Shown here one piece after another: positions 4,869 to 25,335 of a stretch of 26,242 bases of DNA (its first letter is position 1; every line of letters begins with the position of its first letter). The notes beneath the pieces were generated by a model. That model had not been told where the DNA came from, did not search any database, and saw only the letters and a list, made by a program, of their open reading frames with translations. The stretch comes from a virus. Location: positions 1 through 26,242 of IMG/VR virus record IMGVR_UViG_3300042691_015779; one strand, 5' to 3'. The position numbers and the translations under genes are program-made.

Positions 4869-4902
4869 CCCCTTTTGATAAAAAGAAAGGGGATTTGTTT
4901 TT
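4869..4902 (+). terminator. Rho-independent terminator after the lysis cassette
   Basis: CCCCTTT (4869-4875) pairs perfectly with AAAGGGG (4886-4892) around a 10-base loop, and the stem is followed by ATTTGTTTTT. It is the clearest intrinsic terminator in the window and separates the lysis cassette from the ring/muzzle operon. Confidence 0.75.
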
Positions 4903-4910
4903 ATAAATAT

Positions 4911-4918
4911 TATATTTG
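4911..4918 (+). promoter_or_regulatory. -7 box TATATTTG for the ring/muzzle operon
   Basis: TATATTTG lies directly after the terminator and only four bases before the ATG at 4923. The arrangement copies that at 3133-3149, which argues for a real promoter giving leaderless mRNA. A TTTG occurs at 4894-4897, but the 13-base spacing is shorter than usual. Confidence 0.5.
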
Positions 4919-4922
4919 TCTA

Positions 4923-5780
4923 ATGGCAATCACTAAGAGAAACATATCGGACGACATAATCAATTTACTTACACGATTTAAGTTAACTGACGATAGCCGA
5001 TTTGCTACTATTGATCAGTGGCTTTCATGGAAAATTGATCAAGTACGCGCTCAATTAATTATTAAACAATACAATGAAACCGGGGTTTTAGATAATTCTT
5101 GGCTTACGGATTTAGGGTTAGTTGGATTTCATGAAGTTAATTTTGCCGACGATCCAAATGTTACTTATTGTAAGTGCGATATAAGTAAAACCTTTATCCC
5201 TTCAGTTGTAGAACTAGCTTCCCCTAGCGGAGGCAATCCTGATTTAGGGTTATACTCAATAATTTCAACTTGCGGAAAGAACGAATATTATTCTTATCCA
5301 ATGACTACTTGGAGAAACATTCCTTCCGAACATACAAGGTCTAAATTTCACTATTATCAGCGAAAAAACACTGAGCTATATGTGAATAAAAAAGTACAGA
5401 ATTTACTCATTACAGCTATTTTAAACAACCCGGCCGAAGGATATATCATAAGCTCTACTCCTGTTACCACGATCGCCACAGGAACAACATATATAGTTAA
5501 ATTCAATCAGATTGTTTATAACGGAACTGTTTATAGACCAGACGATACATTTGTTGGAGTTGCGTCCGCGACCACTTTTTCGGGTACCGGGAAAGTTGTT
5601 TTACAGGATCAGCTTACTGCTTTGGATGAAACGCAGCCTTATCCCGTTAGCGGAGACATGGCAAGGATGATCACACTTGAGATACTTACAAAAGAGTTTG
5701 GAATTGAATCTAAACAAATTACAGACATTCAAAACGATTCGGCGGACGATGAACAAAAAAGCGAAGCGGGGAACCGATAA
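4923..5780 (+). CDS. Ring/adaptor-like virion protein with small beta insert (285 aa)
   Basis: The ATG at 4923 (MAITKRN) is used; an in-frame TTG at 4875 lies inside the terminator and can be excluded. The N-terminus is helical, with DQWLSWKIDQVRAQLIIKQY at about residues 31-50, a layout I associate with crAss-like connector ring proteins. Around residues 187-222 is a small beta module (TYIVKFNQIVYNG, YRPDDTFVGVA, FSGTGKVV) that also recurs in the 1490-aa protein. The C-terminus is helical and acidic. It overlaps the HU/IHF-like gene by 32 bases and heads the connector operon. By order it could match a ring protein of phiCrAss001; sequence identity was not tested. Confidence 0.6.
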   Translation: MAITKRNISDDIINLLTRFKLTDDSRFATIDQWLSWKIDQVRAQLIIKQYNETGVLDNSWLTDLGLVGFHEVNFADDPNVTYCKCDISKTFIPSVVELASPSGGNPDLGLYSIISTCGKNEYYSYPMTTWRNIPSEHTRSKFHYYQRKNTELYVNKKVQNLLITAILNNPAEGYIISSTPVTTIATGTTYIVKFNQIVYNGTVYRPDDTFVGVASATTFSGTGKVVLQDQLTALDETQPYPVSGDMARMITLEILTKEFGIESKQITDIQNDSADDEQKSEAGNR

Positions 5781-6198
5781 TCAATTTGATATTAGAACTG
5801 TATGCAAACAGTCTAAGTACAAATTACGTAAGTTAGGAGTTAAGGTGACTAACAGGCAAATTAAAGAAGTAGTAAATAAATGGATTGAAGATTTAAAGAA
5901 GGATGTAATAGCAGGGAAACGCGTAATGATAGATAAAAATAGTTACATACAGGTTATAGGAACGCCGATCTTAAAGCATAAGAGTGCCGTTAAATTGATC
6001 AGCAACGGTAAATATGTTACAAGATCAGGGTATGTCAAACCCGCGGACAATATGAATTTCAAACGTAATGATTTTGTTTATGGTATTAAATACGAGAATA
6101 AGAATAAACTTATTTTCACCCCTTCCAAATCATTCTCTAAATCAGTTAATCATTCATTAACTAATACTAACACTTATTATCACTTAAATGTCAATTAA
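5749..6198 (+). CDS. HU/IHF-fold DNA-binding protein (149 aa)
   Basis: The start is the ATG at 5749 (MNKKAKRG); a TTG 72 bases upstream would only add residues overlapping the previous gene. The segment VTNRQIKEVVNKWIEDL, then IAGKRVMIDKNSYIQVIG, aligns by eye with the helix and 'GEKVQLIGFGNFEV' strand region of HU. After a middle part corresponding to the DNA-contacting arms, FTPSKSFSKSV aligns with the terminal 'FKPGKALKDAV' helix of HU. The order of elements is complete. crAss-like phages carry IHF-type subunits among their structural genes (established), so DNA bending during packaging or in regulation is the likely role. The C-terminal extension (about 20 residues, Ser/Thr/Asn-rich) is additional. 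Confidence 0.75.
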   Translation: MNKKAKRGTDNQFDIRTVCKQSKYKLRKLGVKVTNRQIKEVVNKWIEDLKKDVIAGKRVMIDKNSYIQVIGTPILKHKSAVKLISNGKYVTRSGYVKPADNMNFKRNDFVYGIKYENKNKLIFTPSKSFSKSVNHSLTNTNTYYHLNVN

Positions 6199-6970
6199 TA
6201 AACTCATATCTTATAAAAACGTACTATTAGATCTACTAGACGAACTAGCTTTAGATCATACTAAATACACCCCTATGTTTGCCCGTTGGATAGAAAAGGC
6301 GGAAAAGAAAATAGGGAGCAGGTATCAGTACAAAAAGAAAATAGCCGTTTTAAATATTTCAGGATGTACCGCGGAGCTACCAAGTGACGCGGCTTATGTT
6401 CAAAGAGGTATCATGGGTAACCAAGGATGCGATTGTCAAGACTTGTTTTTAAACGTAGGGGGGAGCATAGCCAGTAAAGCAGTATCTATAAGCAGCTCTG
6501 CTAACGCTGCATTCAACAATTTATCCTTCCTTATCGTGGACATCGTACCTGCCGGACAATTTACAGATGCTTCTAATTTCTATTATATAGATTACGAGAT
6601 CCAAGGCAATAAGATCATTTTCAAACAAAATTACAACGGTAGTCAAATCACTATCCAGTACTTGGGCATAGAAACCGATTGTGATGGATTAATGTTAATA
6701 GGAGAGAACCACGTAGACGCTATTATGTGGTATTGCAAATGGAAATTTTATGACCGCCGTATAAGAAGCGGAATTGATCTAGGTAAGGTAAGGGATTATA
6801 AAATGGAATGGGAGCGTCAATGTTTAAATGCAAGAGCCGTGGACGCTACTTTAACCGAACCGGAAAGACAGTCTATTTTACAATACATCCACGATCCTTA
6901 TGTTGGATGGGGACTCCGTTTACAGCCTACTTTAGGCACATGGGGATCTGTAATGAACGGAGTTTGGTAG
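6188..6970 (+). CDS. Connector/ring (tail adaptor) protein (260 aa)
   Basis: It starts 11 bases inside the preceding gene and ends one base before the 1490-aa gene. The N-terminal half begins with helices (LLDLLDELALDH, FARWIEKAEKKIG), followed by ELPSDAAYVQRG, a pattern common in head-tail connector proteins such as P22 gp4-like adaptors, where 'LP.D...' follows an opening helix. A cysteine cluster (GCDCQDLF, about residues 79-86) is unusual. The C-terminal half is mostly beta then helical (ENHVDAIMWYCKWKFYDRR). In phiCrAss001 a ring protein directly precedes the muzzle protein; this gene has the same position and approximate length. Assignment is by layout and motif, from memory. Confidence 0.65.
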   Translation: MSINKLISYKNVLLDLLDELALDHTKYTPMFARWIEKAEKKIGSRYQYKKKIAVLNISGCTAELPSDAAYVQRGIMGNQGCDCQDLFLNVGGSIASKAVSISSSANAAFNNLSFLIVDIVPAGQFTDASNFYYIDYEIQGNKIIFKQNYNGSQITIQYLGIETDCDGLMLIGENHVDAIMWYCKWKFYDRRIRSGIDLGKVRDYKMEWERQCLNARAVDATLTEPERQSILQYIHDPYVGWGLRLQPTLGTWGSVMNGVW

Positions 6971-6971
6971 T

Positions 6972-9900
6972 ATGAATTTAGACGCACAAACACATATAAA
7001 TACCTTTTCCGGAGGAATGTACCGGGACGTAAACGTAATTCATCAGCCGGACGGAACCTATAGGTATGCTAAAAACTTTCAAGTAGTTAGCCATGATGGG
7101 AATAACGTCTCTTTAAAAGACAGTTTAGGAAACAGGGTTGTTTTCACCCTTCCAGCTCCATATAACGCGATAGTTGCTAATACCCAAACAGAACCCACAG
7201 CGATCGGTATGTTATCGTTCCCTGATACTATTGTAGTGTTTAGTACCAACTATAACGGGGCTACAGGTACAGCGTATGGCGAGATCGGATATTTAAAATA
7301 CTTACCGTTTGGGGAATCTATTGAAGGAACCACTACTACTGTTGGGGGATATACTTACGGCGGATACGTCCCTTTGTATCACCATTTAAGTTTAAACTTC
7401 CATAAAGGATATGAGATAAATAACGAAGGGTTTGGGTATCAGGAAAATGAATACGTAAAGCGCGTTTATTGGACAGATAATTTAAACGAACCAAGGGTGT
7501 TTAATATCGCCGATCCTATTTTCACTACTTATTATGCGTCAGGGACATTAAGCGCGGTAGCTGGAACATACTATATGGTACTTGGCGGAGCTATCACTTA
7601 CAACGGTACTAATTATGGACCGGGACTTACAGCAGGAAACGTATTTCCAACATCAGGAGGAATTCAAGTATATGCACAGGCCGCCGGGACACCTTTAGTT
7701 ATTAAATACTATCCATATCAGTTATTAAACTGGACTCCAAGCAGAACTTTAGGAGGGATACATTTTAGTGACTATGGAAGCGGGAGTGTTACCACGGGTG
7801 GTAAAATGTATTTTTATCGTTTAGGGCTTAATTCAGGGTACTTTACAAGCTGGTCTTATGGTTGTCCGCCGATTCATGTAGGGATGGCTAATACAGTCGT
7901 AACAGGTATAGCTTATCATAATTTTGTAGGTAACGGTGGGCTTGGCGTAACGCCCGTAAATAGCGGTAAATCAGTTAAAATCGCTATCGATAATATTGAC
8001 ATTAATTTTGATATAATCCAAATGGCTTGTTGCGAATTTGATCAAGCGGTCGAAGTTCCAACAAGTATTAGTATAGTTCAACAAGCTACCATTACCGGGA
8101 CATCCATGGTGCTTGAGCATTTAGGAGGCACCAATTTAGGTACGCTTACTACAGATGATATTACCACGTTCCCGGCTTCTATTATAACCGCTAAAACTAT
8201 ATGTACTAACAAGAACTATAATTTAGTGGGTAATTTAACGGAAAGAAAAGAATTCCCTGCTTTTGATAACTCTACCATAGCGATCAGCTCTGTTGATTAT
8301 CCTATCATACAGGCATCGGATCCGCGATTAGGGGTAAACGACTTTATATATGCTTCCCCTGACCCTACAGTTGGTATTAACCCGGCGGCGACAACCATCC
8401 GCCCTTATTCAAGGTGGCTTGTAACAGCAGGTAACGATGCAGGTAATAGGGTTGAATATCCCGTTGCTTCAGGAACATATTATTATTTAGGTGATGTGTT
8501 TGTAGGGGTAGCAGGTAGTACCACGGCTACATTTACAGGAACGGCGGCCGCAAGACCATGTACGTACAAACGTAGATATACCCCTATAACTTCCTTAAAT
8601 CCAAACACTACACAAAGAAATGACGCTATTGAATTTAAGACTCAAAATATAGCGTTTTGGAATTATAAGAACCCGGCCGTAGCCGCGCATAACCGCGGAT
8701 ACTGGAGTACTGAAAAATACAGATTTGGTATTTTATTTTATGATAAAAAAGGTAATCCTTTTTATGTTAGACACTTAGGCGATTATACAATGCCTAGCAT
8801 TAATACTAAGGGGGGATTGATGAGATCAGGAGCTTATGCTCCGGATAACTCAGCTCACGCGCCAGTGGCTCAAATATACGCATTGAATCCAAGCGGAGTT
8901 AATATAGACGGAATTAACATCCCTCAAGAGATTGTTGATCAATGCAGTGGATTTAGTATTGTAAGAGCAGAACGCGATCCGAGGGTTTTAATGCAAGGAT
9001 TAGTATTCCCTTGTACGGCCGATACTGTAACAACTCCGGGATTAACGATTATACGCCCTATGGCTACTATGTTTCTTTCGGGAGATGCCTATTTAGACAC
9101 GGCTCAAGGATGCTACTCTTATATTGTACCAGATTACAATGTGTGCGATTGGACTGTATCTAAATTGATTAGGGGATTAACAGGAACACCGGGATCAGGG
9201 AACCCAACAATAGAACAAGCTTGTTGGTTAACTGCTTTTGATTTTGCCGGAGGAGGAGTGTGTCTGGCCACTCAAGCAGACTATTCGGTACATGGCACAT
9301 TATTCGCGGACGCATTACAAGTAGGAGCGGCCAGATCAGCTACTATTGCTTATTGGAGTGGCGTAAATGAAGCAGATTATATTACTGGATTTTTACCTAA
9401 TCAAGATTTTGCTAATGATGGAATTCAAGCGGCTGCCGTAACCGGAGCCATAGTTGATAACTTTTATGGCGGACAAAATCAATTAAACGCAAGGAGAGGT
9501 ACGGGAGGTAAAAAGATATTTATCAGCTTAAATTCTGACTTTAATGCTTTTGACAATACTAGTTATTATTCTCAAATAGGTACAGGCACCAGCGAGAAGA
9601 TCCTTATGAACTATATCAGGGACAACACTAATCCTTATGGGGGATCAGGAGCGGTTGCCTTAGCTAATACTCTTTACATTTCCACAGGTCATTTTCAGCA
9701 GTTTGATGCAACTGTTTTAGCAGAAACATTAAACGGTACTTTTGCCACAGGCGTATATGCTGGACAGAATAAATATACTTTTAATGGGGTACACGTATTT
9801 GGCGGGGATTGTTATACAAATCTAATCGATTACGGATACGAATTATACAATGACACCATCACGGCAAATCCGTACAGTTATGGATTGTTCTTTCCATGTG

Positions 9901-11444
9901 AAAATAACGCTAATTACGATCTAAGAAGGGGAAATAAGATCTCTAACTTGGGAATGTTAGCTGTCGGCGGAGCGTATCCTACAGGAATTCAATACAGCGG
10001 TCCCGGACCATTAACAGTCCTTGAGTCTTACAGTTATAATGAAGGATATTCAAGTGAAGGGGATGTGTTTCAATACCCGGCCCTTCCGGTTAATTTCCTA
10101 AACGCCGGACGCTTCCCTGAAAGGATAAGATTTGCAGGTGAGAAATTTATAGGAGAGATACTAGACTCCTTTAGGACGTTTTTAACCAATGATTATAAAG
10201 ATGTAAACGTAGTTTATGGCGAGATCAATAACTTGCGCCCTAAAGGTGATTATGTATATTATTGGCAAAACAATGCTATCGGTGCTTCGCCTATAAAGCA
10301 ACGCCAATTAATATCAGGAGCCAACGGATCCGAAACCGTTTTAGGAACAGGTGGTGTGATCGATTATTATCAGACAATTAGTACGGTTTGGGGAAATCAA
10401 CATAGACATGGGCTAACCGAAACAAAAGACGGATGGATATGGTTTGATATGCGTAACAAATCAGTATGCGTATTGAATTATAACGGCGGAGCTAATGACA
10501 TTACCGTCCCTTTAGGGTTAAAGAGTTGGTTTAACGAAATATTTGTACAAGTATCTAATTCAAGCCTTATTACGATAGGCTTAATCGATGATCCTACTTT
10601 TGGAGTCCAAATGGATCAACCTTTATTAGGAGTGGGTATTTGCGGGGTGTATGATCCTAAAACTCAAACATCTTACTTGACCTTTAAATTCAAGAATGAG
10701 CCGACATCCACTACAGTCACAGCTAAGGACTTTACGATCGGATTTAACCATCAAATAAATAAATTTACCGGGTTTTACGATATGTATCCGGGGATATGGC
10801 ACAGGCATTATCAGTTTGTGCTGTCGTGCAATAACCCAAAGAACATTCAGAAGTACTACGGAACAGGTATGGCAAGTACTGATTTTGTTGTCGGTGATGT
10901 TATAGCTGATCTTAATAACGAATATATCTGTACCACCGCCGGGACCGTGGCCGCTTACGCCACCCCTCCAAGCGGAGCTATATTTACGTCCATAAATAAG
11001 ACTAATCAAATTTGGGTACAGAACGAAGAGGTAAGTTATGCTACCCCGCCTCCGGGATACGTTTATAATAAAATGTACGGAAGAGTTGTAGATAATGAGC
11101 TTATCGTTATAGTTAACCCTAAGTCTGGCCGTCCTTTTAGCGTAGACACTATAGCTCAGCAGGATTATAACGTGAACTTTACCGATATTTACTATTCGAA
11201 TACCAACCAGACAGGGGCCGACAATTCAATTACAGGCACTAATAGAGACTATCAATATGTGGATGGGGAATTATGGGGGTCGGTTCCGAACGCTAATGGA
11301 AGTTACGGGAAATCAGGTAGATTTACAGATCTATGGCTTCAGGTTCGAATGGTTAAGAAGAACTGGACTACTGTTCCGACAACTGTAACAACATCGGTTA
11401 AGATACTAGGGTATCTCAAATCCCTATGGAGGCTTAAATTTTAA
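6972..11444 (+). CDS. Very large tail stabilisation/'muzzle'-type protein (1490 aa)
   Basis: The N-terminus has the pattern THINTFSGGMYRDVNVIHQP, followed by YRYAKNFQV, which is the opening typical of crAss-like stabilisation/muzzle proteins: a 'GGM..D' motif and the 'N' of a nucleus-like beta-propeller strand. The body is beta-rich with many Gly, Tyr and Asn and no membrane segment. Near the C-terminus, around 10380-10700, are propeller-like strands (LTETKDGWIWFDMRNKSVCVL). At least two and perhaps three copies of a small YNG/GVA beta module occur (about residues 197-230, 497-520, 1303-1340). The final 30 residues are a basic beta segment. As the longest tail gene after the ring protein, it most likely closes the distal tail barrel. 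Confidence 0.7.
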   Translation: MNLDAQTHINTFSGGMYRDVNVIHQPDGTYRYAKNFQVVSHDGNNVSLKDSLGNRVVFTLPAPYNAIVANTQTEPTAIGMLSFPDTIVVFSTNYNGATGTAYGEIGYLKYLPFGESIEGTTTTVGGYTYGGYVPLYHHLSLNFHKGYEINNEGFGYQENEYVKRVYWTDNLNEPRVFNIADPIFTTYYASGTLSAVAGTYYMVLGGAITYNGTNYGPGLTAGNVFPTSGGIQVYAQAAGTPLVIKYYPYQLLNWTPSRTLGGIHFSDYGSGSVTTGGKMYFYRLGLNSGYFTSWSYGCPPIHVGMANTVVTGIAYHNFVGNGGLGVTPVNSGKSVKIAIDNIDINFDIIQMACCEFDQAVEVPTSISIVQQATITGTSMVLEHLGGTNLGTLTTDDITTFPASIITAKTICTNKNYNLVGNLTERKEFPAFDNSTIAISSVDYPIIQASDPRLGVNDFIYASPDPTVGINPAATTIRPYSRWLVTAGNDAGNRVEYPVASGTYYYLGDVFVGVAGSTTATFTGTAAARPCTYKRRYTPITSLNPNTTQRNDAIEFKTQNIAFWNYKNPAVAAHNRGYWSTEKYRFGILFYDKKGNPFYVRHLGDYTMPSINTKGGLMRSGAYAPDNSAHAPVAQIYALNPSGVNIDGINIPQEIVDQCSGFSIVRAERDPRVLMQGLVFPCTADTVTTPGLTIIRPMATMFLSGDAYLDTAQGCYSYIVPDYNVCDWTVSKLIRGLTGTPGSGNPTIEQACWLTAFDFAGGGVCLATQADYSVHGTLFADALQVGAARSATIAYWSGVNEADYITGFLPNQDFANDGIQAAAVTGAIVDNFYGGQNQLNARRGTGGKKIFISLNSDFNAFDNTSYYSQIGTGTSEKILMNYIRDNTNPYGGSGAVALANTLYISTGHFQQFDATVLAETLNGTFATGVYAGQNKYTFNGVHVFGGDCYTNLIDYGYELYNDTITANPYSYGLFFPCENNANYDLRRGNKISNLGMLAVGGAYPTGIQYSGPGPLTVLESYSYNEGYSSEGDVFQYPALPVNFLNAGRFPERIRFAGEKFIGEILDSFRTFLTNDYKDVNVVYGEINNLRPKGDYVYYWQNNAIGASPIKQRQLISGANGSETVLGTGGVIDYYQTISTVWGNQHRHGLTETKDGWIWFDMRNKSVCVLNYNGGANDITVPLGLKSWFNEIFVQVSNSSLITIGLIDDPTFGVQMDQPLLGVGICGVYDPKTQTSYLTFKFKNEPTSTTVTAKDFTIGFNHQINKFTGFYDMYPGIWHRHYQFVLSCNNPKNIQKYYGTGMASTDFVVGDVIADLNNEYICTTAGTVAAYATPPSGAIFTSINKTNQIWVQNEEVSYATPPPGYVYNKMYGRVVDNELIVIVNPKSGRPFSVDTIAQQDYNVNFTDIYYSNTNQTGADNSITGTNRDYQYVDGELWGSVPNANGSYGKSGRFTDLWLQVRMVKKNWTTVPTTVTTSVKILGYLKSLWRLKF

Positions 11445-12140: not shown

Positions 12141-14663
12141 ATGAGAAAAGCTCCAAAACAAAAAATCAAATCATATCAAGATGGCGGTCCAATAGGGAGT
12201 AAGAAAATGACTCCTGAAGAGTGGGATGTTTATAATAAATCAAAAGGATATACTATAGATCCTCGCAATCCAAAGAGCGCAAAAGGATACGGAAACTATT
12301 ACGATCCTTCTCAGATATTAATAAATCCAAGTAAGGCGCACGAAAGTGGATATGAGATTATAGGAAAAGCTCCCGGAGCCGTGGATGCTTTTGGATCCCC
12401 TTTAGCGAGTGCCTTTAGTGCATATTCTTATACGCCTCCGCCATCTACGTTTACTCCTACAGTACAGAAAAAAATAGTTACGCCGATTGAAGGAAGAAAG
12501 CCATTAGAGCTGAATAATCCGGGAGTTTGGGTAAATCCCAATGATAGTACGTATATTAACCCACTTACAAATAAACCAATCACTCCTGTTACTAAAAAAG
12601 ATGGAGGGATGATTAAGGGATACGCTAATGGCAGTTGGGTGAATGCTCAAGGACAGCCATTGACTGCTGATGAAATGACTTACAGTGATGCAGACAAAGC
12701 ATTGCTTGGTTATAAGCAAAGTGGCGGACAAGGATTTAATACTAGTCAATTAGGATCCGCTGCTTTAAGTACAGGTATTGGAGCTTTAAGCGGATTAGCG
12801 CAAAATAAACTAACGCAGGAGCAAAATCCGTACGAAACATATAGTGGTACTAATAAAGCAGTACAAGGCGGTGCTTCGGCTGCTTTAAATGCAGCGGTAC
12901 CGGGCGCAGGAACAGCTTTAGGATTAGGCTTAACTGCTAAAGACACATATCAATCAAAAGCATCAGAAATTGATCCCACTACAGGAAAATACATAGATAA
13001 AGATAAAGCAAAAAGAGCAGGATTGGCAGATGTAGCATTGAGTTTTACTCCAATAGGAATGGCGGATACCCTTACCGATAAGAGTTTAAGTTGGAAAGAC
13101 AAGGGACTGTCTTTAGCTACTCACGGATTATTTAACGATACAGACGCTTTAAAATCAGCTTTTCAAAACAAAGATTTGTCATTAGGCGATAAGCTTAAGA
13201 CAGCAAGTATGTTTGGAAATGTAGACAGGAATGAAGCTAAATGGGCAGGAGATGTAACAAGAGCTAATAATTTAGAAAAATCAACCGAGAATATAAATGA
13301 AGCCATGCGTAAAAGAGCCATGGGTGAGTTTGCTGATGGAGGAAAGATCACAGGTAAAGGTGGTCCTAAATCTGATGACATTAAGGCTAAAATGAAATCA
13401 GGATCGTTTATTGTCCCGGCAGAGAACGCGGACAAAGCAGAAATGCTTCGTGAGAAAGTGCTTAAAAAAGCTCCTAATAAAAAAGCTAATTTACAACAAA
13501 AAGGAGGAGTGGATGTTATGCTTTCGAACGGAGAACACGCATTTAGCCCTGAAGAGGTAGCTGAATTAAAAAAGTATGGATATGACGTGGATGCTTTAGC
13601 TCCCAATTCAGATGATAAAAAAGCAATGAAGAGCGGAGGATTAACACCGGAAAAGGCTAAAACTATGCTTAGAGATAATCAAGCGAATGGTAAGCCACTA
13701 ACTCCGCTTCAAAAAAGATATTTTGGATTTATCGCAGGTGGCGGACATCCACACAAAGCAGAAGGTGGTTTACTTTACAGCGATGGCGGACGAGTAAGAC
13801 AGAAAGGTGAAACAACTCAGCAGTACGTAGCCCGTATGAAAGAACTTGATAAACAAGAAGCTTCTAAGCAACCTACAGCTAAACGCGCCCCTGTAAAAAC
13901 AAAACAAGATCAATTACCGGATTTAGCTACACGTCAAGTTTTATTACCAAATAATGAAGATGCTTCCGGAGCAGGAGGGTTATTAGGGCAAGAAAAACAA
14001 GTCCCTTTAAGCGGAGCTGGACAAATAACTTCAAGAGAAGTTAATGAAGCCGCCGTTGACTCCCCTCAAACCGTTATTCCTAAAACTACAAAGGAACCTA
14101 AAGTAGACTGGATGAACGTTCTTGAATATGGAGCGGCCGCTGGACAAATAGCTTTAGGGTTAAATCAATTAGGCAAATCTAAACGCCCTGTTTACAGTAT
14201 GGATAAAACATTTGAATCTAATGTAAACAAAGCTTTAGCCAATGCTCAATTTGGTTATACCCCTCAGCAACAATTTTTATTAGATCAACAAAATCAAGGC
14301 TTAACAAATGCAGGTAGATTTTCTGCCCGTAATTTAAGTGGAGGGAACGCTGCCAGTGCTTTAGCTAACGAAAGATCTGTTTTAAACGATGCCTTTACCC
14401 GCGACATTAACGCGGTAGTTGGCGGACAACAATTACAGCAATCCAAACAAGCTAGAGCAGATGCTTTATTAGCTGATAAAATGGCTATTCAACGTCAAAT
14501 CTTTTCTAATTCACTTAACGCGTTTAATCAAAAACAGCAAAGCGGAAGTGCGTTATTGGGAGCAGGGATCAGAAACATTATCGGAGCTAACCGAGTACAG
14601 CAAGAATTAGCAGCTCAGGAAAAAGCAGCAAATTTATCTAATTCTTGGATGGGAAATATATGA
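12141..14663 (+). CDS. Large virion cargo-like protein (840 aa)
   Basis: The protein is rich in Gly, Ala, Lys and Gln and has no export signal. Around residues 210-300 it contains Ala/Gly segments (LGSAALSTGIGALSGLA, GGASAALNAAVPGAGTAL) that could be membrane-active helices. The middle holds the motif GKITGKGGPKSDDIKAKM..GSFIVPA followed by MLSNGEHAFSPEEVAELK, a pattern of phage ejected or structural proteins, and then PLTPLQKRYFGFIAGGG. The last 150 residues are helical and Gln-rich. In phiCrAss001 a cargo protein follows the muzzle gene; order and size fit. It is probably packaged in capsid or tail and released with the DNA. Confidence 0.6.
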   Translation: MRKAPKQKIKSYQDGGPIGSKKMTPEEWDVYNKSKGYTIDPRNPKSAKGYGNYYDPSQILINPSKAHESGYEIIGKAPGAVDAFGSPLASAFSAYSYTPPPSTFTPTVQKKIVTPIEGRKPLELNNPGVWVNPNDSTYINPLTNKPITPVTKKDGGMIKGYANGSWVNAQGQPLTADEMTYSDADKALLGYKQSGGQGFNTSQLGSAALSTGIGALSGLAQNKLTQEQNPYETYSGTNKAVQGGASAALNAAVPGAGTALGLGLTAKDTYQSKASEIDPTTGKYIDKDKAKRAGLADVALSFTPIGMADTLTDKSLSWKDKGLSLATHGLFNDTDALKSAFQNKDLSLGDKLKTASMFGNVDRNEAKWAGDVTRANNLEKSTENINEAMRKRAMGEFADGGKITGKGGPKSDDIKAKMKSGSFIVPAENADKAEMLREKVLKKAPNKKANLQQKGGVDVMLSNGEHAFSPEEVAELKKYGYDVDALAPNSDDKKAMKSGGLTPEKAKTMLRDNQANGKPLTPLQKRYFGFIAGGGHPHKAEGGLLYSDGGRVRQKGETTQQYVARMKELDKQEASKQPTAKRAPVKTKQDQLPDLATRQVLLPNNEDASGAGGLLGQEKQVPLSGAGQITSREVNEAAVDSPQTVIPKTTKEPKVDWMNVLEYGAAAGQIALGLNQLGKSKRPVYSMDKTFESNVNKALANAQFGYTPQQQFLLDQQNQGLTNAGRFSARNLSGGNAASALANERSVLNDAFTRDINAVVGGQQLQQSKQARADALLADKMAIQRQIFSNSLNAFNQKQQSGSALLGAGIRNIIGANRVQQELAAQEKAANLSNSWMGNI

Positions 14664-15728: not shown

Positions 15729-17174
15729 ATGGAACTTAATCAAGGAATTTTATCTGGGCTTGCTCAGGATTTTGGGAGCGAATCACGACTCCAAGATTTA
15801 CGTTATCAAAATCATTTGTATAAACAGGCTCAAGCGGAAAGTGCGGCCAAGGCACAAATGTTTAGCGATGATCTTGACTTTCAGAACGCCGCGAATGCTT
15901 ACGACAACCCTCGGATCAAAGAGTTCGCTAAGAACAAAATAAAAGAGATTGGTTCTTTTGTCCGCGAGAATCCTGATTGGCAATACAATCCAGATAAGCT
16001 AATGCAGATCAAATTAATGAAGCGTGATTTAAAAGATAATCCGGAATTGATCAGAGGGGTGGCTTCGGATAACGCTTTTAAACAACTTAATGCTGATCTA
16101 GCGGAAGTAGCCAAAGCCCCTGAGCAACATGACGTAGATGCTTATGAAGAATTAGATAAGCAACGTCAAAACTATTTACAGTACGGTAATCAATTTGGCC
16201 CGGAAGCTTTTGCTAAACAAGGGGCGCAACCTTTTGTTTACACTAAACCTAAGAACTTCGTTAATCTTCCAAAGGCTTTACAGGAATTAGGATCAAGTAT
16301 TAAGAATTACAATGTAGAGAAAGGTAAAACGCCGGGAGAATGGTGGAGTACCCCTAAACAAGAAGATGTACAAGCTGTTAAACAAGCAGCTTATCAAGAA
16401 CATAAACGTCAGATAGAAGTTGAAGCTAAGAGGTTAGGTATGACGGATCCTGCTCAAATAGATAAATGGGTATCCGATCAAATAGCCAGTGGTTTTCAAA
16501 AACACTATGATGCCGGGGACGTGAATGCTTTATGGAACAGAGGTATGCAATTAAGAGCTTTAGCAGAGAAACAAGGTGGCGGACAAAAACCAGCTTCTTA
16601 CACTCCTTGGGATGATTTATTTGACCCTCGTAAACCAGCAGGGAACGTTCCTACAGAGCTTGTCCGTAAGGTGTGGAATGATAACCCTAAGATACAAATA
16701 AGCGGTATAGGAGGCGTTAAAGTTGATTTAACGGGCCATCAAATGAATTATGACGGGCGGTACGTTACCAACGCACAGGGCCAGAGATTTCTTACCGGAT
16801 ATGTTAATTTACCTTTAGAAGTAGCAAAAGAAAAGGGAATATATAACGACGAGGCGGACGAAGATACCCCTAACCTTAGAATCAAAGGACCATTCTTGGG
16901 TAAAGCAAGGGTGCAGAAAAAAGAGGATAAGGACGGGGTGGTTACCGAATATGTTCGCGTAGATTATCCATTACCTATCGACCCTCACGATGGAACTGGC
17001 AGACAGATGTACAACGCGATCGCACAGCCGGATAAATTATCTCAGCCTTTAGAGTACGATCAATTAGGTAACCAACAAGAAGGAACCTATCAAGGGTTTA
17101 AAGTAGGAGCGGTAGTTAAGAACAAAGCGGGGAATAAATTTTTAGTTACAGCTAATGGATTAATACCTCAATAG
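15729..17174 (+). CDS. Cargo-module protein, function unknown (481 aa)
   Basis: It begins MELNQGILSGLAQDFG and is helical and Gln/Lys/Asp-rich in its first 320 residues, with coiled-coil-like stretches such as QAAYQEHKRQIEVEAKRLG. The last 150 residues look more beta-like (GIGGVKVDLTGHQMNYDGRYV, then VVKNKAGNKFLV). There is no membrane segment, signal peptide or catalytic motif that I recognise. Its place between the 840-aa protein and the polyvalent protein suggests a second packaged protein. It would originally have followed the 840-aa gene directly before the homing endonuclease arrived. Confidence 0.6.
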   Translation: MELNQGILSGLAQDFGSESRLQDLRYQNHLYKQAQAESAAKAQMFSDDLDFQNAANAYDNPRIKEFAKNKIKEIGSFVRENPDWQYNPDKLMQIKLMKRDLKDNPELIRGVASDNAFKQLNADLAEVAKAPEQHDVDAYEELDKQRQNYLQYGNQFGPEAFAKQGAQPFVYTKPKNFVNLPKALQELGSSIKNYNVEKGKTPGEWWSTPKQEDVQAVKQAAYQEHKRQIEVEAKRLGMTDPAQIDKWVSDQIASGFQKHYDAGDVNALWNRGMQLRALAEKQGGGQKPASYTPWDDLFDPRKPAGNVPTELVRKVWNDNPKIQISGIGGVKVDLTGHQMNYDGRYVTNAQGQRFLTGYVNLPLEVAKEKGIYNDEADEDTPNLRIKGPFLGKARVQKKEDKDGVVTEYVRVDYPLPIDPHDGTGRQMYNAIAQPDKLSQPLEYDQLGNQQEGTYQGFKVGAVVKNKAGNKFLVTANGLIPQ

Positions 17175-17176
17175 TC

Positions 17177-20100
17177 ATGGGAAAGAAAGAGAAACTAATA
17201 ACTTCATTTAATCCCAATGATTTTGAAGTAGTACAGGAACCTAGCGTTAAGCCTATAACTGAATTCGATCCTAATGAATTTACGGTAGTGTCCGCCCCTA
17301 AGCAACCTTTATATAAGGATACTTTTACGCAAGTTAAAGAAGCTCAGGACGCTCAAGTAGAAGTTAAGAAACCGTCCCCTGACGAAGTATTAGCTAACGT
17401 TAAGACAAACAACGATTCAGAAAAAGAATTGCTTAAAAACATAGCTTTAAAAGTTAATGAAGGTAAAGCAACTCACGAAGAGTTAACAGATGCTATTTTA
17501 ACCATTCAAGGACAACATCCAAAACAAGAAGGACAAGGAAGTTATTTTGTAGAGAATAGCGGAGGGGTTTATATTCCGCGTCCTTTAAAGAAATATGAAG
17601 TACCTAAGCAAAAGAATGTAACTAAGATTTTTAGTGATAAAAGTACTATAGAGACATTTGCTGATAGTTGGGAGAGAGGCAAAGCTACTTTAGCAGAAAA
17701 CCTTGTTCGTACCCCTGAGTTTTTATATGACTTGGCGGTTAATGAGAATATTAATAAAATCCCTAACATATATAATCCCTTAGTAGAGAATTACAATAAA
17801 GTAGCTAAAAAAGAAGGATTAAAAGAACTTCCGGTAATTACTAAAGCACCGACATCTTCTGAATTAGGAGATATTACAGGTATTCATAACGAATTAGCTG
17901 ATAGTATTTCAAGGGAGAAGGAAAAGCTAAGTAGAGATTTTCAACAAAAATATGATAAAGGAATTACTGAATACGCTAAGAATGGTGAATACGGAAAAGC
18001 CATTGGTTTATTGAGTAATTCAATTATCGAATCCGCTCCAACAACAATAGGCATCGCTTTAAGCGGAGGTGCTGGAGCTACCGGAACCGCGATCACACTT
18101 GCGGGTGGTGCGGTATTTGGAGCTGGAAAGAAAGCCGAATTGGACAAAGAAGCTCAAGGGATGAACGAAACCCAAAAGTTAGGTAACGCAGTTGTTACAG
18201 GACTTGCAGAAGGGTTTTTTGAACAGTGGGGTATTACTAAATTAGGAGGCATAGTAGCGGACGTATTTAAGAAAGAGGGGAAAGACGCTGCTAAATTATT
18301 TGCAGAACAGGCCTTTAAAAAGACGTATGCTCCAGCGGTAGGTAAATACTTAGGTATTACAGCAGAAGAAGGATTAGGGGAAGCCGCCACTCAGTTTGCT
18401 CAAAACGCAGTGGATAAATATTCGGGATATAAACCAAATATTAAATTAAGCGATGGCGTTGCCGATGCTTTAATTGTGGGTGTTGGGGCCTCGGTAGCTA
18501 TGGGAGCAGGAGTGGCTAAAGTAGAGAGCGCGGTAGAGAAAAAGATTAAAAGAGCAAATGAGCAATCACAATATTTATTTGATACTGCTAAGAAGGGAAC
18601 AGAAGCTGTTAATGCTTTTAAAGCAGATATAGACAATTCAGTTAGAACCGGGCAGATCAGCAAGGAAGCGGCCGACAAAGCTAAATTCCAATTAGATACC
18701 TATAAAGAGTATAATGATCAAACGGCTGATCTTAATATCTCGGATAATCAAAAGAGAGAGATATTTGATAAGACCTTCCAAAAAGCAAATTTAGAAGAAC
18801 ATATCAAAGGACTTGATCCTGAAAAAATGAATGGCATTGAACTTGCCAAATATGAAGGGTTAAAGAAACAAGCTAAACATTTACAGGAAGATATTAATAA
18901 GATCGTATTAGAGGCTCAAATTAAAGAGGAAACCATAGCGGGTGAGAAAACTATTGAGGAACATGAAGAAGAGCCTGTAATTAAAGGTAAAGAAGAAAAA
19001 AAGCCTATTTTAAGCCCGGAACTTCAGGCATTAAAAGATAGGTATAAAAAACCCGAAACCGTTAAGGAAGGTAAGCTACCGGAGCAACCAAAGCCGGAAG
19101 AAGATACTCGTACTATAGCGGAGATCCCTAATGAGGTATGGAATCATTCTCAATTTAACGCGCGGACAAAACACGCTAAGTTAGCGGACTATTTAGAGAC
19201 TGTCCCTGATAAAAAAACTTCAGGGGTGTTAAAAGAGAATGTTTACACTTACGCTAAAAAGAAGAACAGAACTTATGAAGTTGAACTGCCGGACGGAAAG
19301 AGAATCCGTTTAGCCAGTTCCATGCTCCGCGATACAGGCATTAGCGGTCACTTCAGAACAGAACATATTAAAGGAAAGATCGCTGAATTCCCGGTAGGAG
19401 TTAAAGTAGAATATTTACCGGATGGTAAAAAGGCGATTAAGATATTTAACGGCAAGACGGGTAGGTTTTTAAGCTGGGCTAAGGCCACTAATACAAGCAA
19501 GAAAGATGAATGGACGGATCTGCAAAAAGATCAGTTAGAGCATTTGTCTACCATTGTAGAACCACCTATCATTCCTCCTACAGAGGAAGGGGAAGGACCT
19601 ATAGAGCCTGTTAAACCTACAGAGCCAACGAAACCTATTACGCCAACTAACGTACAACAGATTAATGAAAAAACCACTACAGGAGAGAAAACTGTCCCCG
19701 CAACAACTTCAGAAGCTGTTGAAAAAGGTGAACGAAAAGCTAAAGCCCTCAGAGCCGGGACCAAAAAAGCCAACCGTAAAATAAGGCACCCTGAGCTAAT
19801 TCAGGCATTAAATCATGATGTATTCGAGCCTCATGGTATTGCTATGCAGTACTTTATCGGCGGAGGCGAAATAGGAAGTCAGGCGGTTAAGGATATGTTT
19901 AAGAACGCTAAAGGTGAACTTAACGCCCGTATTTCTTATATCCGCAAGAACGGCCCTACGATCGATGAGATAGCCCATAACTTATGGGAACAACACAGTG
20001 AGCTTAATTTTGACACTCAAGATTACGCTAATGCAGTGGAGGACGTTGTATTAAGTTATAACAGCTCGACAGCCATGGCTAAGGATATTAACAAACAGAT

Positions 20101-22189
20101 GTCTGAAGGTCAGGATATGCGTTTTAACCCCCTTGAGGAAGTTATTAATACAGAAGCCGAGATCGCGGACAATAATGGATTAGGAGAACAATTCGACAGA
20201 GCCATTGACTTTTTAGAAGGGATGAATGATGAAGAGCTGATTAAGTTAGCTAATGATCAAGAAGCTTTTAATAACTGGTACGAAGAGAATGAAAATAAGA
20301 TCGAGGAGGGTAAAGATATTATCCGTGATGACGGAGAAGGTGACCAGTTTCAGAAGCCTAAGTCTAAAAAAATAATTAAGCCAAAAAAAGAAGAAATAGG
20401 TGGTGGCGAAAAAGCTTATGAAAAATGGAAAGGCGAAAATAAAGAATATGAGGGTGCGGAAATTGAAGAAGTAAAGACTGGAGAAAAAGTAATGTTAACC
20501 GTATATCACGGAACTACTAATGAGTTTTATGAGTTTGACAGTTCGGTTAAAGGAAACATAGAAGGGCATTTAGGTAAAATTAATTACTTCACTTCCGATA
20601 AAGGAGATGCTGAAATGAATTATACATCAAGTGGTCCTGATTTAACCTCTCGTATTGAACAAAGAGCCGAAAGATTAGAGTATGATCTGGAAGGTAAAAC
20701 AGATAAGGAAATAGCTACTGAATATGGCGTAAAAGTTAAAGATTTAAAAGGAAAATCTAATGTAGAAAAAGGAAGGGTAATCGCCGAAAAAGAGCTTAAG
20801 GGAGGGGAAGAAAAAGTATTAAAGCTTCATGTTAAATTAAATAACCCTGTTGTGTTAGGAAAAAAAAGCACTTGGGTTGATGTAATTCCAGAAGCAGAAT
20901 ACGCGGACCATATCCCTGAAGCAGAAGAACAGATTGCTGACGAAAACGGTATTAGTATAGAAGAAGCTAGACAGGATTATTCTTACGACATTAGAAATAG
21001 GGCGATTGAAAATTCTTATACTGAATCCCCTTTATTAACGGCATTACAAGACGCTCTTAATGAAAATGGTTATTCGGACAAATCAGCATCAGAGTTATTA
21101 CAAGACTTTCTTTATGAAGAGGAAGTAGATTTGAGTAATTTAGAAAAGGCTCTCCGTAAAGCAGAATTGTATGAAAATGAAAGCGGAGATATAGCTTCTT
21201 CTCAAGTCATAGCTGATTTTTTTAAAAATTTAGGTTATGACGGAATTATATTAACTGACGTATCGGAAAGATTTAAAAACATGGGAATTGGTTCATATAC
21301 TTCCCATATACACGTATTTGATGAATTTGCAAATCAAATTAAACTTGCGGACGGAACAAATAAAACTTATAACGAAGAAACTAAAGACATACGTTTCCAA
21401 AAACAAAAGCAAGATAAAGGGAGCGTAGAAGTCGGTAGTCACGAAGCTGTATTAAAAGTTACTCAACATATTCAAAAAGTATTACCTAAGATCAAGGTAA
21501 TATATAACAACAAATTAAAGGCAGCGGGTAAGTTAACCGCAGACGGAAGGACCATCGAGATCAACCCTTATTACGCAGGTAGTGACACTCCTATCCACGA
21601 AGCCGGACACGTTCTAATTGACGCTATGGGTTATGGCCACGTAGCTATTCAAGCAGGGATCAAACAGCTTAAAAAGACCGATCTGTACAAAGAGACTAAG
21701 GAAAGGTACCCTGAGTTAAGCGAAGAGATGCTAAACAAAGAAGTATTAGCCGAGGCCATAGGAAGAGAAGGGGCGGACATCTTTGATTCAGAAGTCGAGA
21801 AATCGAAATTTAAGCAGGTTTTAGAGCATATCTTTAACTGGCTGAAGCAAAGATTAGGTTTGGATAAGAACGTGGCTAAGAGCTTAGCTAAACAGATTAT
21901 AGGAGGCATTGGAACTAAGAAGTTAGGCGGAGTAAAAGGGGAAGAGCAAAAGGAAATCGTTGGACAAAAAGGAATACAAGAATCCCGCGAATCTTCCGAA
22001 AAAACCAGCGAAGCAGTTAAAGCTTTTGACGAAGCTAATTCTAAGCGCGGAATCAACAGAAACACCGCTATGAAGGAGTTTAAAAAGAATTTCCCTAACT
22101 TAGCTCCCACTATTAAGTTAGTAACTGACAATTTTAAAGAAATAGTAAATCAATTAAAACAAACACATAATCTAATAGAAAAATGTTAA
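17177..22189 (+). CDS. Polyvalent virion protein: ART-like domain plus zincin metallopeptidase (1670 aa)
   Basis: The N-terminus carries two short repeats (FNPNDFEVV, FDPNEFTVV). Gly/Ala-rich segments near residues 285-320 and about 435-450 could insert in membranes. A Pro/Thr/Glu-rich linker sits at about 800-830. At about residues 1105-1415 is an ADP-ribosyltransferase-like domain: VYHGTTNEFYEFD, INYFTSDKGDAEMNY, LHVKLNNPVVL, LGYDGIIL, and a terminal DIRFQ, the order seen in ART-PolyVal domains (Iyer, Burroughs and Aravind). At 1474-1478 the HEAGH motif gives a zincin, with EVLAEAIGRE downstream supplying the third ligand. The remainder is helical. Polyvalent proteins are delivered with phage or plasmid DNA; modifying host targets early in infection is the likely role. 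It ends 7 bases inside the ferritin gene. Confidence 0.85.
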   Translation: MGKKEKLITSFNPNDFEVVQEPSVKPITEFDPNEFTVVSAPKQPLYKDTFTQVKEAQDAQVEVKKPSPDEVLANVKTNNDSEKELLKNIALKVNEGKATHEELTDAILTIQGQHPKQEGQGSYFVENSGGVYIPRPLKKYEVPKQKNVTKIFSDKSTIETFADSWERGKATLAENLVRTPEFLYDLAVNENINKIPNIYNPLVENYNKVAKKEGLKELPVITKAPTSSELGDITGIHNELADSISREKEKLSRDFQQKYDKGITEYAKNGEYGKAIGLLSNSIIESAPTTIGIALSGGAGATGTAITLAGGAVFGAGKKAELDKEAQGMNETQKLGNAVVTGLAEGFFEQWGITKLGGIVADVFKKEGKDAAKLFAEQAFKKTYAPAVGKYLGITAEEGLGEAATQFAQNAVDKYSGYKPNIKLSDGVADALIVGVGASVAMGAGVAKVESAVEKKIKRANEQSQYLFDTAKKGTEAVNAFKADIDNSVRTGQISKEAADKAKFQLDTYKEYNDQTADLNISDNQKREIFDKTFQKANLEEHIKGLDPEKMNGIELAKYEGLKKQAKHLQEDINKIVLEAQIKEETIAGEKTIEEHEEEPVIKGKEEKKPILSPELQALKDRYKKPETVKEGKLPEQPKPEEDTRTIAEIPNEVWNHSQFNARTKHAKLADYLETVPDKKTSGVLKENVYTYAKKKNRTYEVELPDGKRIRLASSMLRDTGISGHFRTEHIKGKIAEFPVGVKVEYLPDGKKAIKIFNGKTGRFLSWAKATNTSKKDEWTDLQKDQLEHLSTIVEPPIIPPTEEGEGPIEPVKPTEPTKPITPTNVQQINEKTTTGEKTVPATTSEAVEKGERKAKALRAGTKKANRKIRHPELIQALNHDVFEPHGIAMQYFIGGGEIGSQAVKDMFKNAKGELNARISYIRKNGPTIDEIAHNLWEQHSELNFDTQDYANAVEDVVLSYNSSTAMAKDINKQMSEGQDMRFNPLEEVINTEAEIADNNGLGEQFDRAIDFLEGMNDEELIKLANDQEAFNNWYEENENKIEEGKDIIRDDGEGDQFQKPKSKKIIKPKKEEIGGGEKAYEKWKGENKEYEGAEIEEVKTGEKVMLTVYHGTTNEFYEFDSSVKGNIEGHLGKINYFTSDKGDAEMNYTSSGPDLTSRIEQRAERLEYDLEGKTDKEIATEYGVKVKDLKGKSNVEKGRVIAEKELKGGEEKVLKLHVKLNNPVVLGKKSTWVDVIPEAEYADHIPEAEEQIADENGISIEEARQDYSYDIRNRAIENSYTESPLLTALQDALNENGYSDKSASELLQDFLYEEEVDLSNLEKALRKAELYENESGDIASSQVIADFFKNLGYDGIILTDVSERFKNMGIGSYTSHIHVFDEFANQIKLADGTNKTYNEETKDIRFQKQKQDKGSVEVGSHEAVLKVTQHIQKVLPKIKVIYNNKLKAAGKLTADGRTIEINPYYAGSDTPIHEAGHVLIDAMGYGHVAIQAGIKQLKKTDLYKETKERYPELSEEMLNKEVLAEAIGREGADIFDSEVEKSKFKQVLEHIFNWLKQRLGLDKNVAKSLAKQIIGGIGTKKLGGVKGEEQKEIVGQKGIQESRESSEKTSEAVKAFDEANSKRGINRNTAMKEFKKNFPNLAPTIKLVTDNFKEIVNQLKQTHNLIEKC

Positions 22190-22671
22190 AGAAATCGCTT
22201 TTATCATCCGCCACAAGGAAACTCCTAAATGAAGCCGCCGGGCATGAATTATATGCTTCTAATCTTTATAAGCACGTAGCTAACACCCTACAAAACATGG
22301 GTCTGTTTGGGTCCCAGAAGTTCTTTTTAAACGAATCGGCCGACGAGCTAACCCACTATCAAAAGATCGCTGACTTTATGAACGATCGCTTTGACCAAGT
22401 GATTGTCGCCGAAGTCCCTGAAATGGAAGAAAAGATCGATTCTCTTTTGTCGGCCTTTGAACTGGCTTTAGAAACAGAAATGGAACTAGGAAAGTTCTAT
22501 TCTAAGTTCTATTCAGATTGTGATTGTGAAGTTACTAAACAGTTTCTATTACAGTTTATAGAGATCCAGCGATTATCTGTAGGAGAATACGGGGACTTTG
22601 TAGCTACCTTAACTTTTGTCGGCGATGAAAAAGGCGGACAATTACTATTCGACCAAGAAATAAATGGCTAA
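22183..22671 (+). CDS. Ferritin (162 aa)
   Basis: The sequence aligns by eye with bacterial FtnA along its whole length. LNEAAGHELYASNLY supplies E22 and Y29, ADELTHY supplies E55 and H58, LETEMELGK supplies E99, and QFIEIQ supplies Q129; together these cover the ferroxidase di-iron A and B site ligands. The family's terminal GEGLYFIDKEL is matched by GGQLLFDQEI. The extra C-site glutamates of FtnA near its residue 130 are replaced (RLSV), so iron entry may differ. Length is the family norm for subunits that build 24-mer shells. It overlaps the polyvalent gene by 7 bases and the next gene by 8, so it is expressed as part of the cargo operon rather than by an iron-controlled promoter. A ferritin-like rubrerythrin relative is less likely because of the C-terminal match. 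Confidence 0.85.
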   Translation: MLKKSLLSSATRKLLNEAAGHELYASNLYKHVANTLQNMGLFGSQKFFLNESADELTHYQKIADFMNDRFDQVIVAEVPEMEEKIDSLLSAFELALETEMELGKFYSKFYSDCDCEVTKQFLLQFIEIQRLSVGEYGDFVATLTFVGDEKGGQLLFDQEING

Positions 22672-24322
22672 TAACTGTGTTTATACTATAGACGGTAAGA
22701 AGTACTCTTATGAGGAGTTTAGGGCTTATCTAGCGGATAATATCGATTCGCTAGGGTTAGATCAATCTAAACTTACCGGGAAACTCCGTCCTTTAGAACA
22801 ATTCCAAAAGCCTAAAATCAATAAAGAACTTAATGATTTCCGGGAAAAGGAATTGGGGCGCGATTTAGAGCAGGAGCAAAAGGATCTGGACTATGTAGAG
22901 GAAGAGTTATCAAAACGCCTACCAAAGGACGCTAGGGAGGAATTAGAGGCCATTAGGGACACTATCCTAGAACAGCGAACCGCGGACAGAAAGATATACG
23001 AAAAGTCACTTGATGATAAAAAACTTACAGCTAAAGAACGAATAGCTCTACAAGAAGAGAAAGAACGCGCAGACTACGAAGAAAGCCTAAGAACTAGAAG
23101 CCGTGGAGAAAAAGCAAAAGATGTTATGCTTGGCATTATCGGCATCCCACGAGCTTTACAATTAGGGTTAGACTTATCAGCCATAGGCGTACAGGGAATG
23201 AGAAGATTAGCCACTTCCCCTATTCAGTCCTATAAAGCCTTTACCGATATGATGAAACAGGCATTTTCGGAGAAGGAACAAGAGAAATGGCATAAGACCT
23301 TAAAGGAACAAGACTGGTACCCTGTTTTAAAAGATTCCGGATTGTCTATTACTGAAATGGACGGGGAGATAAGTAAGCGGGAAGAGAACTTTAGTAACGA
23401 TTATATTAAGATGATCACTAACAAAGCCTTTGGTAAATACGACCCTTACGAGGCTTCAAATAGAGCCTTTAGCGGGTATCTAAACTCTTTAAGGGTACAG
23501 GGCTTTTTAGAAGGAATGACAGCTTTAGAGGCTCAAGGAAAGACTTTTGAGAGCCATCCACAGGACTTTAAGTCATGGGCGGATTATATCAATAACGTCA
23601 CTGGCCGTGGATCATGGAGCAAAGAAGTAAACTCTTCGAAACTAGCTCAGATATTATTCCTGTCCCCGCGTAAGATCATGTCGGAGGCTAACCTTATTAA
23701 CCCGGTATATTGGGGGAACTTATTTGCTAAGGACAAAGGTAAATCTTATGAATATTCGCTTACCCCGACCGTGGCCCGTAAAGCCTTTGCTGACTTTAGT
23801 TTAGGGATGGGAGTGCTGTTTACCGCCTCGTTACTTGCTAAGGCCGCCTTTGGCGATGACGATGAAAAGAGCGATAAAGACTTTTGGAACCCTACCAGCT
23901 CTAATTTTATGAGTATTCAGGTAAAGGATAAAAAGGGTGGTAAAACGGTTATTAATCTATTTGGAGCGTTAAAATCTGAGATAGTGATGCTCTCGCGTTT
24001 AATATCCGGGAAAGACACTAACGCCATGACGGGTAAAACTACCAAGATCGGCGACAAACAAGGTCATACAAGGACTGATATTTTCTTAAACTGGTTGGCT
24101 AATAAACTTGGTCCGGCCGCCCATTTAACTTATGCCGCGGGTAAGCAGACCAAAGCTCATCCTTTAGATGTGAGCGATGAAGCAGTTAAATTTGTTCTTC
24201 CTTCTTGGAGCCAAGGGATTGTAGATACTTACAAGGATTATCCTACCTCTACGGCACTTGCTTTAACACTTACTTCTTTGTTTGGGGTACAGACCACTCA
24301 TTTACAGAAAAAGAAGAAATAA
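22664..24322 (+). CDS. Polyvalent-type protein with membrane-like C-terminal region (552 aa)
   Basis: The N-terminus (CVYTIDGKKYSYEEFRAYL) has the short beta-hairpin 'GKxYSYEEF' opening used by many phage polyvalent proteins. Residues about 50-140 are a highly charged coiled coil. The rest resembles C-terminal ends of large polyvalent proteins: GIIGIPRALQLGLDL, ASNRAFSGYLNSLR, FLSPRKIMSEANLIN, then LGMGVLFTASLLAKAAFGDDD, FWNPTSSNFMSIQ and FGALKSEIVMLSR. The hydrophobic GVLFTASLLAKAAF helix could span a membrane. It reads as a piece that in other phages is fused to the ART/peptidase polyprotein (inference). It is the last gene of the operon and has no clear terminator after it. Confidence 0.65.
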   Translation: MANNCVYTIDGKKYSYEEFRAYLADNIDSLGLDQSKLTGKLRPLEQFQKPKINKELNDFREKELGRDLEQEQKDLDYVEEELSKRLPKDAREELEAIRDTILEQRTADRKIYEKSLDDKKLTAKERIALQEEKERADYEESLRTRSRGEKAKDVMLGIIGIPRALQLGLDLSAIGVQGMRRLATSPIQSYKAFTDMMKQAFSEKEQEKWHKTLKEQDWYPVLKDSGLSITEMDGEISKREENFSNDYIKMITNKAFGKYDPYEASNRAFSGYLNSLRVQGFLEGMTALEAQGKTFESHPQDFKSWADYINNVTGRGSWSKEVNSSKLAQILFLSPRKIMSEANLINPVYWGNLFAKDKGKSYEYSLTPTVARKAFADFSLGMGVLFTASLLAKAAFGDDDEKSDKDFWNPTSSNFMSIQVKDKKGGKTVINLFGALKSEIVMLSRLISGKDTNAMTGKTTKIGDKQGHTRTDIFLNWLANKLGPAAHLTYAAGKQTKAHPLDVSDEAVKFVLPSWSQGIVDTYKDYPTSTALALTLTSLFGVQTTHLQKKKK

Positions 24323-25170: not shown

Positions 25171-25335
25171 AAAACAGCGTGAGGGATTGAAGTGGAAATC
25201 CTTTTTGTTTTTCACAAAAAGATTGGAGCGGAAAGCCCGACCCGAAGGGGCACGCCCAAATGTCAATTCAATGGGTGGTGGGTGGGTTTTTAGCCCACAG
25301 TATGTTAAGAAGTAGCTAATTACTAACGCTGTTTT
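25171..25335. ncRNA. Candidate structured element B (165 nt), bounded by 10-bp inverted repeats
   Basis: AAAACAGCGT (25171-25180) and ACGCTGTTTT (25326-25335) are a perfect inverted repeat. Inside are GATT/AATC (25185-25188/25197-25200), CTTTTTGT/ACAAAAAG (25201-25208/25214-25221), CCC-GAA-GGG (25241-25249) and GTGGG/CCCAC (25282-25286/25294-25298). A 17-base unit GATTGAAGTGGAAATCC is repeated as GATTGGAGCGGAAAGCC (14 of 17). This pattern of gaaGcGG..ATCC, a T/A hairpin and gGAGCGGAAAGCC matches an intergenic element very common in Flavobacteriia genomes (from memory). Strand cannot be fixed from the sequence. Confidence 0.5.

Follow-up and report, generated by a model that had tools for sequence, protein, structure and literature searches.

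Ferritins assemble into 24-mers of about 12 nm in width, and in eukaryotic H-chain ferritins the ferroxidase pattern is present without a C-site. Dps proteins are of the 12-mer type, lack helix E, and have a ferroxidase site that is shared between two subunits. Viral genes of the ferritin superfamily are already known. The handling of iron by phages has been much discussed, although few concrete genes have been put forward. In crAss001, the muzzle gene (gp44) is followed by gp45, gp46 and gp47, whose products have been detected in virions as cargo, and the tail contains constrictions of under 5 nm (PMC10172136).

The window (the whole stretch of 26,242 nucleotides that was analysed, from an IMG/VR virus record) is a fragment of a crAss-like phage, as judged from ring and muzzle proteins that exceed the Pfam cut-off of 27 bits. 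These are crAss tail ring protein 2 (4875..5780; PF25702, 30.2 bits), crAss tail ring protein 1 (6188..6970; PF24228, 52.1 bits) and a crAss-like muzzle protein (6972..11444; PF25731, 300.8 bits), and like all other window features given with coordinates here they are encoded on the plus strand. A crAss-type portal was not matched within this 26-kb fragment. A glucosaminidase lysin (3383-3883; PF01832, 93.4 bits) is located near the tail ring genes.

After the muzzle gene, the order is a 167-aa gene, an 840-aa protein (12141..14663), a GIY-YIG endonuclease, a 481-aa protein (15729..17174), a large polyvalent-type protein of 1670 aa (17177..22189), the ferritin (22183..22671) and a 552-aa protein (22664..24322). 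The 840-, 481- and 1670-aa proteins hold the positions of the crAss001 cargo proteins gp45 (842 aa), gp46 (534 aa) and gp47; position and rough size agree and no sequence match to gp45, gp46 or gp47 was detectable, so the cargo assignment of these genes is by position. The 1670-aa protein contains a weak match to ART-PolyVal (19.6 bits, below the cut-off of 31.2) and a HEAGH metallopeptidase motif spotted by eye, and the 552-aa protein is approximately 28% identical over 434 aa to the product of the gene that follows the ferritin in L028, a further crAss-like contig. No ferritin is annotated across the corresponding cargo stretch of cr10_1 and crAss001. No relatives of the 481- and 552-aa genes came up in single-protein scans, and accordingly no ferritin-free sister locus ('empty site') could be identified.

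Other elements were also observed around these genes. The endonuclease, a GIY-YIG/NUMOD3 homing endonuclease (14645-15727), is inserted between two cargo-position genes. The 840-aa protein matches phrog_11341, a family of unassigned function. Three phages that otherwise differ encode a member ahead of the ferritin cassette (L081:3729-5477, L085:4634-6601 and the window), and it is possibly a conserved pilot or cargo protein. A Flavo-1 RNA (25172-25246; RF01705, 59.2 bits against a gathering score of 42) was found in the gap that follows the cassette; it is consistent with a Bacteroidota/Flavobacteria host and unusual within a phage record.

The ferritin and its ferroxidase site

The open reading frame at 22183..22671 starts with ATG, and its 162-aa product matches the Pfam ferritin profile PF00210 with 59.6 bits against a cut-off of 24.5 (E 4e-16). 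PDB ferritins were also matched in a sequence search (E 7e-11, range 1e-10 to 1e-11), and the matches listed are named ferritins, none of them bacterioferritin. Both results greatly exceed what chance would give. The AlphaFold2 model, computed from an alignment of 25 phage homologues, has a pLDDT of 95.5 and contains helices A-E at residues 9-38, 42-68, 88-112, 116-146 and 150-160, the last being a short helix E. Using Foldseek, the whole chain could be aligned with solved archaeal and bacterial ferritins at a TM of ~0.92-0.94. The gene had been called a ferritin by the first-pass annotation, and this call has held in both the HMM search and the structure prediction.

Residues E22, Y29, E55, H58, E99 and Q129 correspond one-to-one to E17, Y24, E50, H53, E94 and Q127 of Escherichia coli FtnA, and are located at the positions and in the order that the first-pass annotation had given. 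In the alignment of 84 family members, they are conserved in 84/84 (E22), 84/84 (Y29), 83/84 (E55), 84/84 (H58), 83/83 (E99) and 83/84 (Q129) sequences. The C-terminal family signature recognized earlier is likewise present, as the block LLFDQE within the predicted helix E (residues 150-160) is the counterpart of YFIDKE in FtnA. Taken from sequence and model together, the product is a true non-haem ferritin with a complete intrasubunit A/B ferroxidase site, and apparently it is catalytically competent.

The C-site glutamates of FtnA (E49, E126, E129 and E130) are replaced by D54, I128, L131 and S132. It had been suggested that this loss may alter iron mineralisation. The loss itself is real and is common to the whole phage family in the 84-member alignment; since it is family-wide and gives the same layout as in eukaryotic H-chain ferritins, it provides no argument for lost activity.

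A ferritin family in uncultured phages

Single-protein scans, and then alignment scans, of IMG/VR retrieved 1, then 30 and then at least 81 loci with the phage ferritin. The 84 loci analysed comprise 81 IMG/VR contigs, two misbinned metagenome-assembled phage contigs and the window, and form 40 clusters at 90% identity; all records with the family are uncultured contigs. In the GTDB genome collection only two contigs with the family were found, both in a phage context, and in the isolate-phage collection no member was found at useful similarity. Intact phage members score 145-290 bits with the phage model, versus at most ~80 bits for cellular ferritins. A quick maximum-likelihood tree, with few cellular rows and long branches, separates the phage set from seven cellular ferritins by a branch with 99% SH-aLRT support. 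The nearest viral ferritin structures in BFVD are only 22-25% identical to the window ferritin, and members of the family diverge from it to about 41-55% identity. By these comparisons the family, which had not been annotated before, is phage-specific and remote from every cellular ferritin sampled. With dN/dS values of 0.04-0.30, the family is under purifying selection.

Several candidates were set aside. Matches in Staphylococcus and human-faeces 'phage' records are cellular-type ferritins of about 59 bits with the phage model, and probably represent host DNA in unverified records. Capture from a Burkholderiales host, the bin of two of the phage contigs, was rejected with 198/200 genomes giving no match, and one of the two genomes that did match contains the misbinned phage contig itself. 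A truncated ferritin ORF of 94 aa with the UpC motif (see below) upstream was observed in a Zoogloea MAG contig (L033:10001-10285), and may reflect gene breakage or else faulty assembly of this misbinned phage contig.

The ferritin is closely packed between its neighbours. In the window, it shares 7 bases with the upstream ORF and 8 with the downstream one, in agreement with the first-pass annotation, and across the family a same-strand gene is present within 20 nt upstream in 78/84 loci and within 30 nt downstream in 78/84, the remaining loci being mostly contig ends. The possibility that the three genes are fused, or joined by programmed frameshifting, was considered and rejected, as in most loci the junctions range from a 14-nt overlap to a 12-nt gap, and a fused ORF was not observed.

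Nearly all of the loci with readable neighbours are late structural clusters from several unrelated lineages, in which the ferritin either is flanked on both sides by large proteins of polyvalent type or adjoins genes for a portal, minor-head or neck protein. The largest group has the order large protein, ferritin, large protein, and consists of contigs that are podovirus-like as judged from L020, which encodes a T7-like head-tail adaptor, a terminase and a capsid gene. A crAss-type portal (phrog_6547) is present on four other ferritin contigs. In two of these, L021 and L028, the ferritin is located between two large proteins as in the window, which answers the earlier proposal that other crAss-like genomes be searched at the same position. 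In L025 it directly follows the portal, and in L084 it lies among virion structural genes, with a muzzle-like match a few genes further on. In this last crAss-like phage, the gene immediately preceding the ferritin encodes a GroES-like co-chaperonin (L084:9126-9989; phrog_13932, 7.5e-9). The ferritin follows a portal of another family in L024, and likewise in L027 by the same gene cluster. In L029 it follows a minor-head/pilot protein, which itself has a portal-like gene before it, and a neck protein is found two genes on; L030 has the same gene clusters.

In relatives, the large neighbours contain ART-PolyVal, LPD38, zeta-toxin, helicase and methylase domains, which are typical of polyvalent proteins (PMC5512222). 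One such zeta-toxin domain (44.6 bits) is located near the C-terminus of a large protein upstream of the ferritin (L003:3179-9991). Portal-adjacent and similar members (L024, L025, L027, L029, L030 and L082-L084) have something other than a polyvalent protein upstream, and no UpC was seen in them, so these partners are not required by the ferritin in every phage.

Terminal domains of the flanking proteins

Upstream proteins with differing bodies share their last ~60 residues, ending in '...NFxDILxxLexxGxVKINC(K/D)', and downstream proteins share their first ~40 residues, 'M..CTYxF..G...I.G..A.KAYL..'. In the window, the upstream region, named UpC, is formed by residues 1581-1670 of the 1670-aa protein (21917..22186); it is a helical domain, conserved ahead of the ferritin in phages that are not related, whose last residue is an invariant cysteine. 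The downstream tag, named DnN, is an N-terminal stretch of ~33 aa, MANNCVYTIDGKKYSYEEFRAYLADNIDSLGLD, with a cysteine at residue 5 (22664..22762). A UpC model built without the window matches the upstream protein of the window at residues 1611-1662 of 1670 (E 6e-5 among 1135 proteins), as well as the upstream proteins of L001, L081 and L085. The UpC regions of L021 and L028 were not significant in the leave-out HMM, nor was the DnN of the window, which matches other phages by pattern only.

The terminal cysteine is the sole invariant column in the UpC alignment of 40 sequences. Its codon overlaps the ferritin ATG in the window, so that this particular cysteine is partly forced; at loci with a gap of 8-11 nt, the cysteine is also kept. 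UpC is predicted to be a compact helical domain with a pLDDT of about 90, and no match to it was obtained in the PDB, either by sequence or by fold.

When IMG/VR was scanned with DnN only, 54 loci were found, and the ferritin directly precedes the tag in all 53 that have upstream DNA (53/53), ten of these being on contigs outside the ferritin-derived list. For the scan with UpC only, a closer subset of the sequences was used, since the initial alignment proved too divergent; 34 loci were found, all with both ferritin and DnN (34/34). These loci are mostly from related podoviruses, mainly of one lineage, and the counts of 53/53 and 34/34 are therefore not independent events. In the scans made here, the terminal domains of the flanking proteins occur only next to ferritin.

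Possible roles and relation to known systems

Three lines of evidence bear on the role of this ferritin. The gene cluster and the cargo precedent of crAss001 argue for a location in the virion, the conserved terminal domains speak for a partnership of the ferritin with the large proteins, beyond shared timing, and the intact ferroxidase site under selection argues for real iron chemistry. The best reading is that an active ferritin and its two neighbours form a late cargo or ejection module, with the ferritin packaged or associated with the portal, and we consider this to have about an even chance of being correct. The earlier description of the gene as embedded in a phage cargo operon rests on homology and on gene order, between two polyvalent-type proteins and recurring in many phages; the presence of the ferritin in virions is what we infer from these.

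The cassette would consist of a large polyvalent protein with a helical C-terminal domain and a terminal cysteine, the ferritin, and a large protein with an N-terminal cysteine tag. These three proteins would be translated late, from overlapping or abutting genes, alongside the virion proteins. During particle building, UpC and DnN would most likely bind the ferritin, or bind one another together with it, and the ferritin would be packaged with its neighbours or held at the portal vertex. There it may oxidise and sequester Fe(II) and thereby use up peroxide or oxygen, and the presumed outcome is protection of the packaged DNA and cargo. Alternatively, the free iron of the new host could be tuned, if ferritin subunits were ejected unfolded. 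Since a 24-mer of ~12 nm exceeds tail constrictions of <5 nm, a cage filled with mineral would be retained, either by the capsid or by the producing cell, and ejection would be limited to unfolded subunits. It is unlikely that an intact mineralised 24-mer is exported through the tail, which counts against the earlier idea of iron delivery to the new host in so far as an assembled, iron-filled cage is meant.

The main rival explanation, for which we see a real but clearly lesser chance, is that the ferritin acts as an iron and oxidant buffer in the producing cell. The late-expressed protein would bind Fe(II) freed by the turnover of host enzymes and shield replicating DNA and virion proteins, the structural operon giving only timing and dose. 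The intact ferroxidase site and the ordinary role of ferritins agree with this, placement in a structural cluster would give late and high expression, and the portal-adjacent members without UpC are as expected if timing alone counts. Phage Dps and other ferritin-like genes have also been read as oxidative-stress tools (PMC8008677). However, timing alone leaves unexplained why UpC and DnN are found only beside the ferritin.

The strict linkage to UpC and DnN is also what would be seen if the ferritin shell or its subunits did no more than give the polyvalent proteins a platform for assembly or docking, with vestigial iron chemistry; this is very improbable, as all six residues of the ferroxidase site hardly vary among the 84 members despite the divergence of the family. 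A role in supplying iron to metal-bearing virion parts, or in assembling them, such as the iron of a tail spike or tip (the 'Ferrojan horse' idea), is unlikely too. The ferritin is located in head-tail and ejection gene clusters, and iron in phage tails has been proposed by others, as cited in PMC10892097. On the other hand, the members occur in phages with differing tail or portal types and no iron-binding tail protein was identified beside the ferritin. The one published virion 'ferritin' that was checked, Sajous1 gp217 (117 aa, assigned by Phyre2), does not match the phage family and was rejected as a precedent.

A broader form of the packaging hypothesis can be put forward only tentatively: several unrelated phage lineages might build particles with a ferritin, in which two giant cargo proteins dock through cysteine-bearing terminal domains and a ferroxidase is packaged in the capsid together with effectors. 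What is described here is a widespread and well-conserved phage-only ferritin, tied to virion morphogenesis and ejection genes and provided with testable partner domains. The family opens a direct experimental route to the questions of whether iron is carried or controlled by phages in their particles, and of how polyvalent proteins are picked for packaging. The open-licence PMC papers searched gave no report of a ferritin family that is confined to phages and fixed in a late cassette of three parts with polyvalent proteins.

Compared with the bacterial and archaeal non-haem ferritins (E. coli FtnA, Archaeoglobus fulgidus and Pyrococcus furiosus), the phage ferritin has the same five-helix fold with helix E, the A/B site and a similar length, whereas identity over the fold is only about 20-27% and the C-site glutamates are lost. 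Eukaryotic H-chain-type ferritins ('Ferritin heavy chain' entries) are among its best PDB sequence matches at about 22-27% identity, and the phage protein differs from them in being shorter and of phage origin. Unlike Dps, it possesses helix E and an intrasubunit pattern of ferroxidase residues. With other viral ferritins and Dps proteins, such as BFVD entries, gut-phage Dps (PMC8008677) and those of Lactobacillus phages, it has in common that a ferritin-superfamily gene is carried by a virus. Its flanking genes resemble the phage polyvalent proteins (Iyer et al. 2017, PMC5512222, the text of which does not contain 'ferritin') and the crAss001 cargo in being very large and located among late virion genes, and share with the polyvalent proteins ART-PolyVal (in the window a match below the cut-off), LPD38 and an MPTase-like HEAGH motif, as well as helicase and methylase domains in relatives. 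If the packaging hypothesis is true, a packaged phage ferroxidase would be a virally encoded parallel to ferritin-loaded encapsulins.
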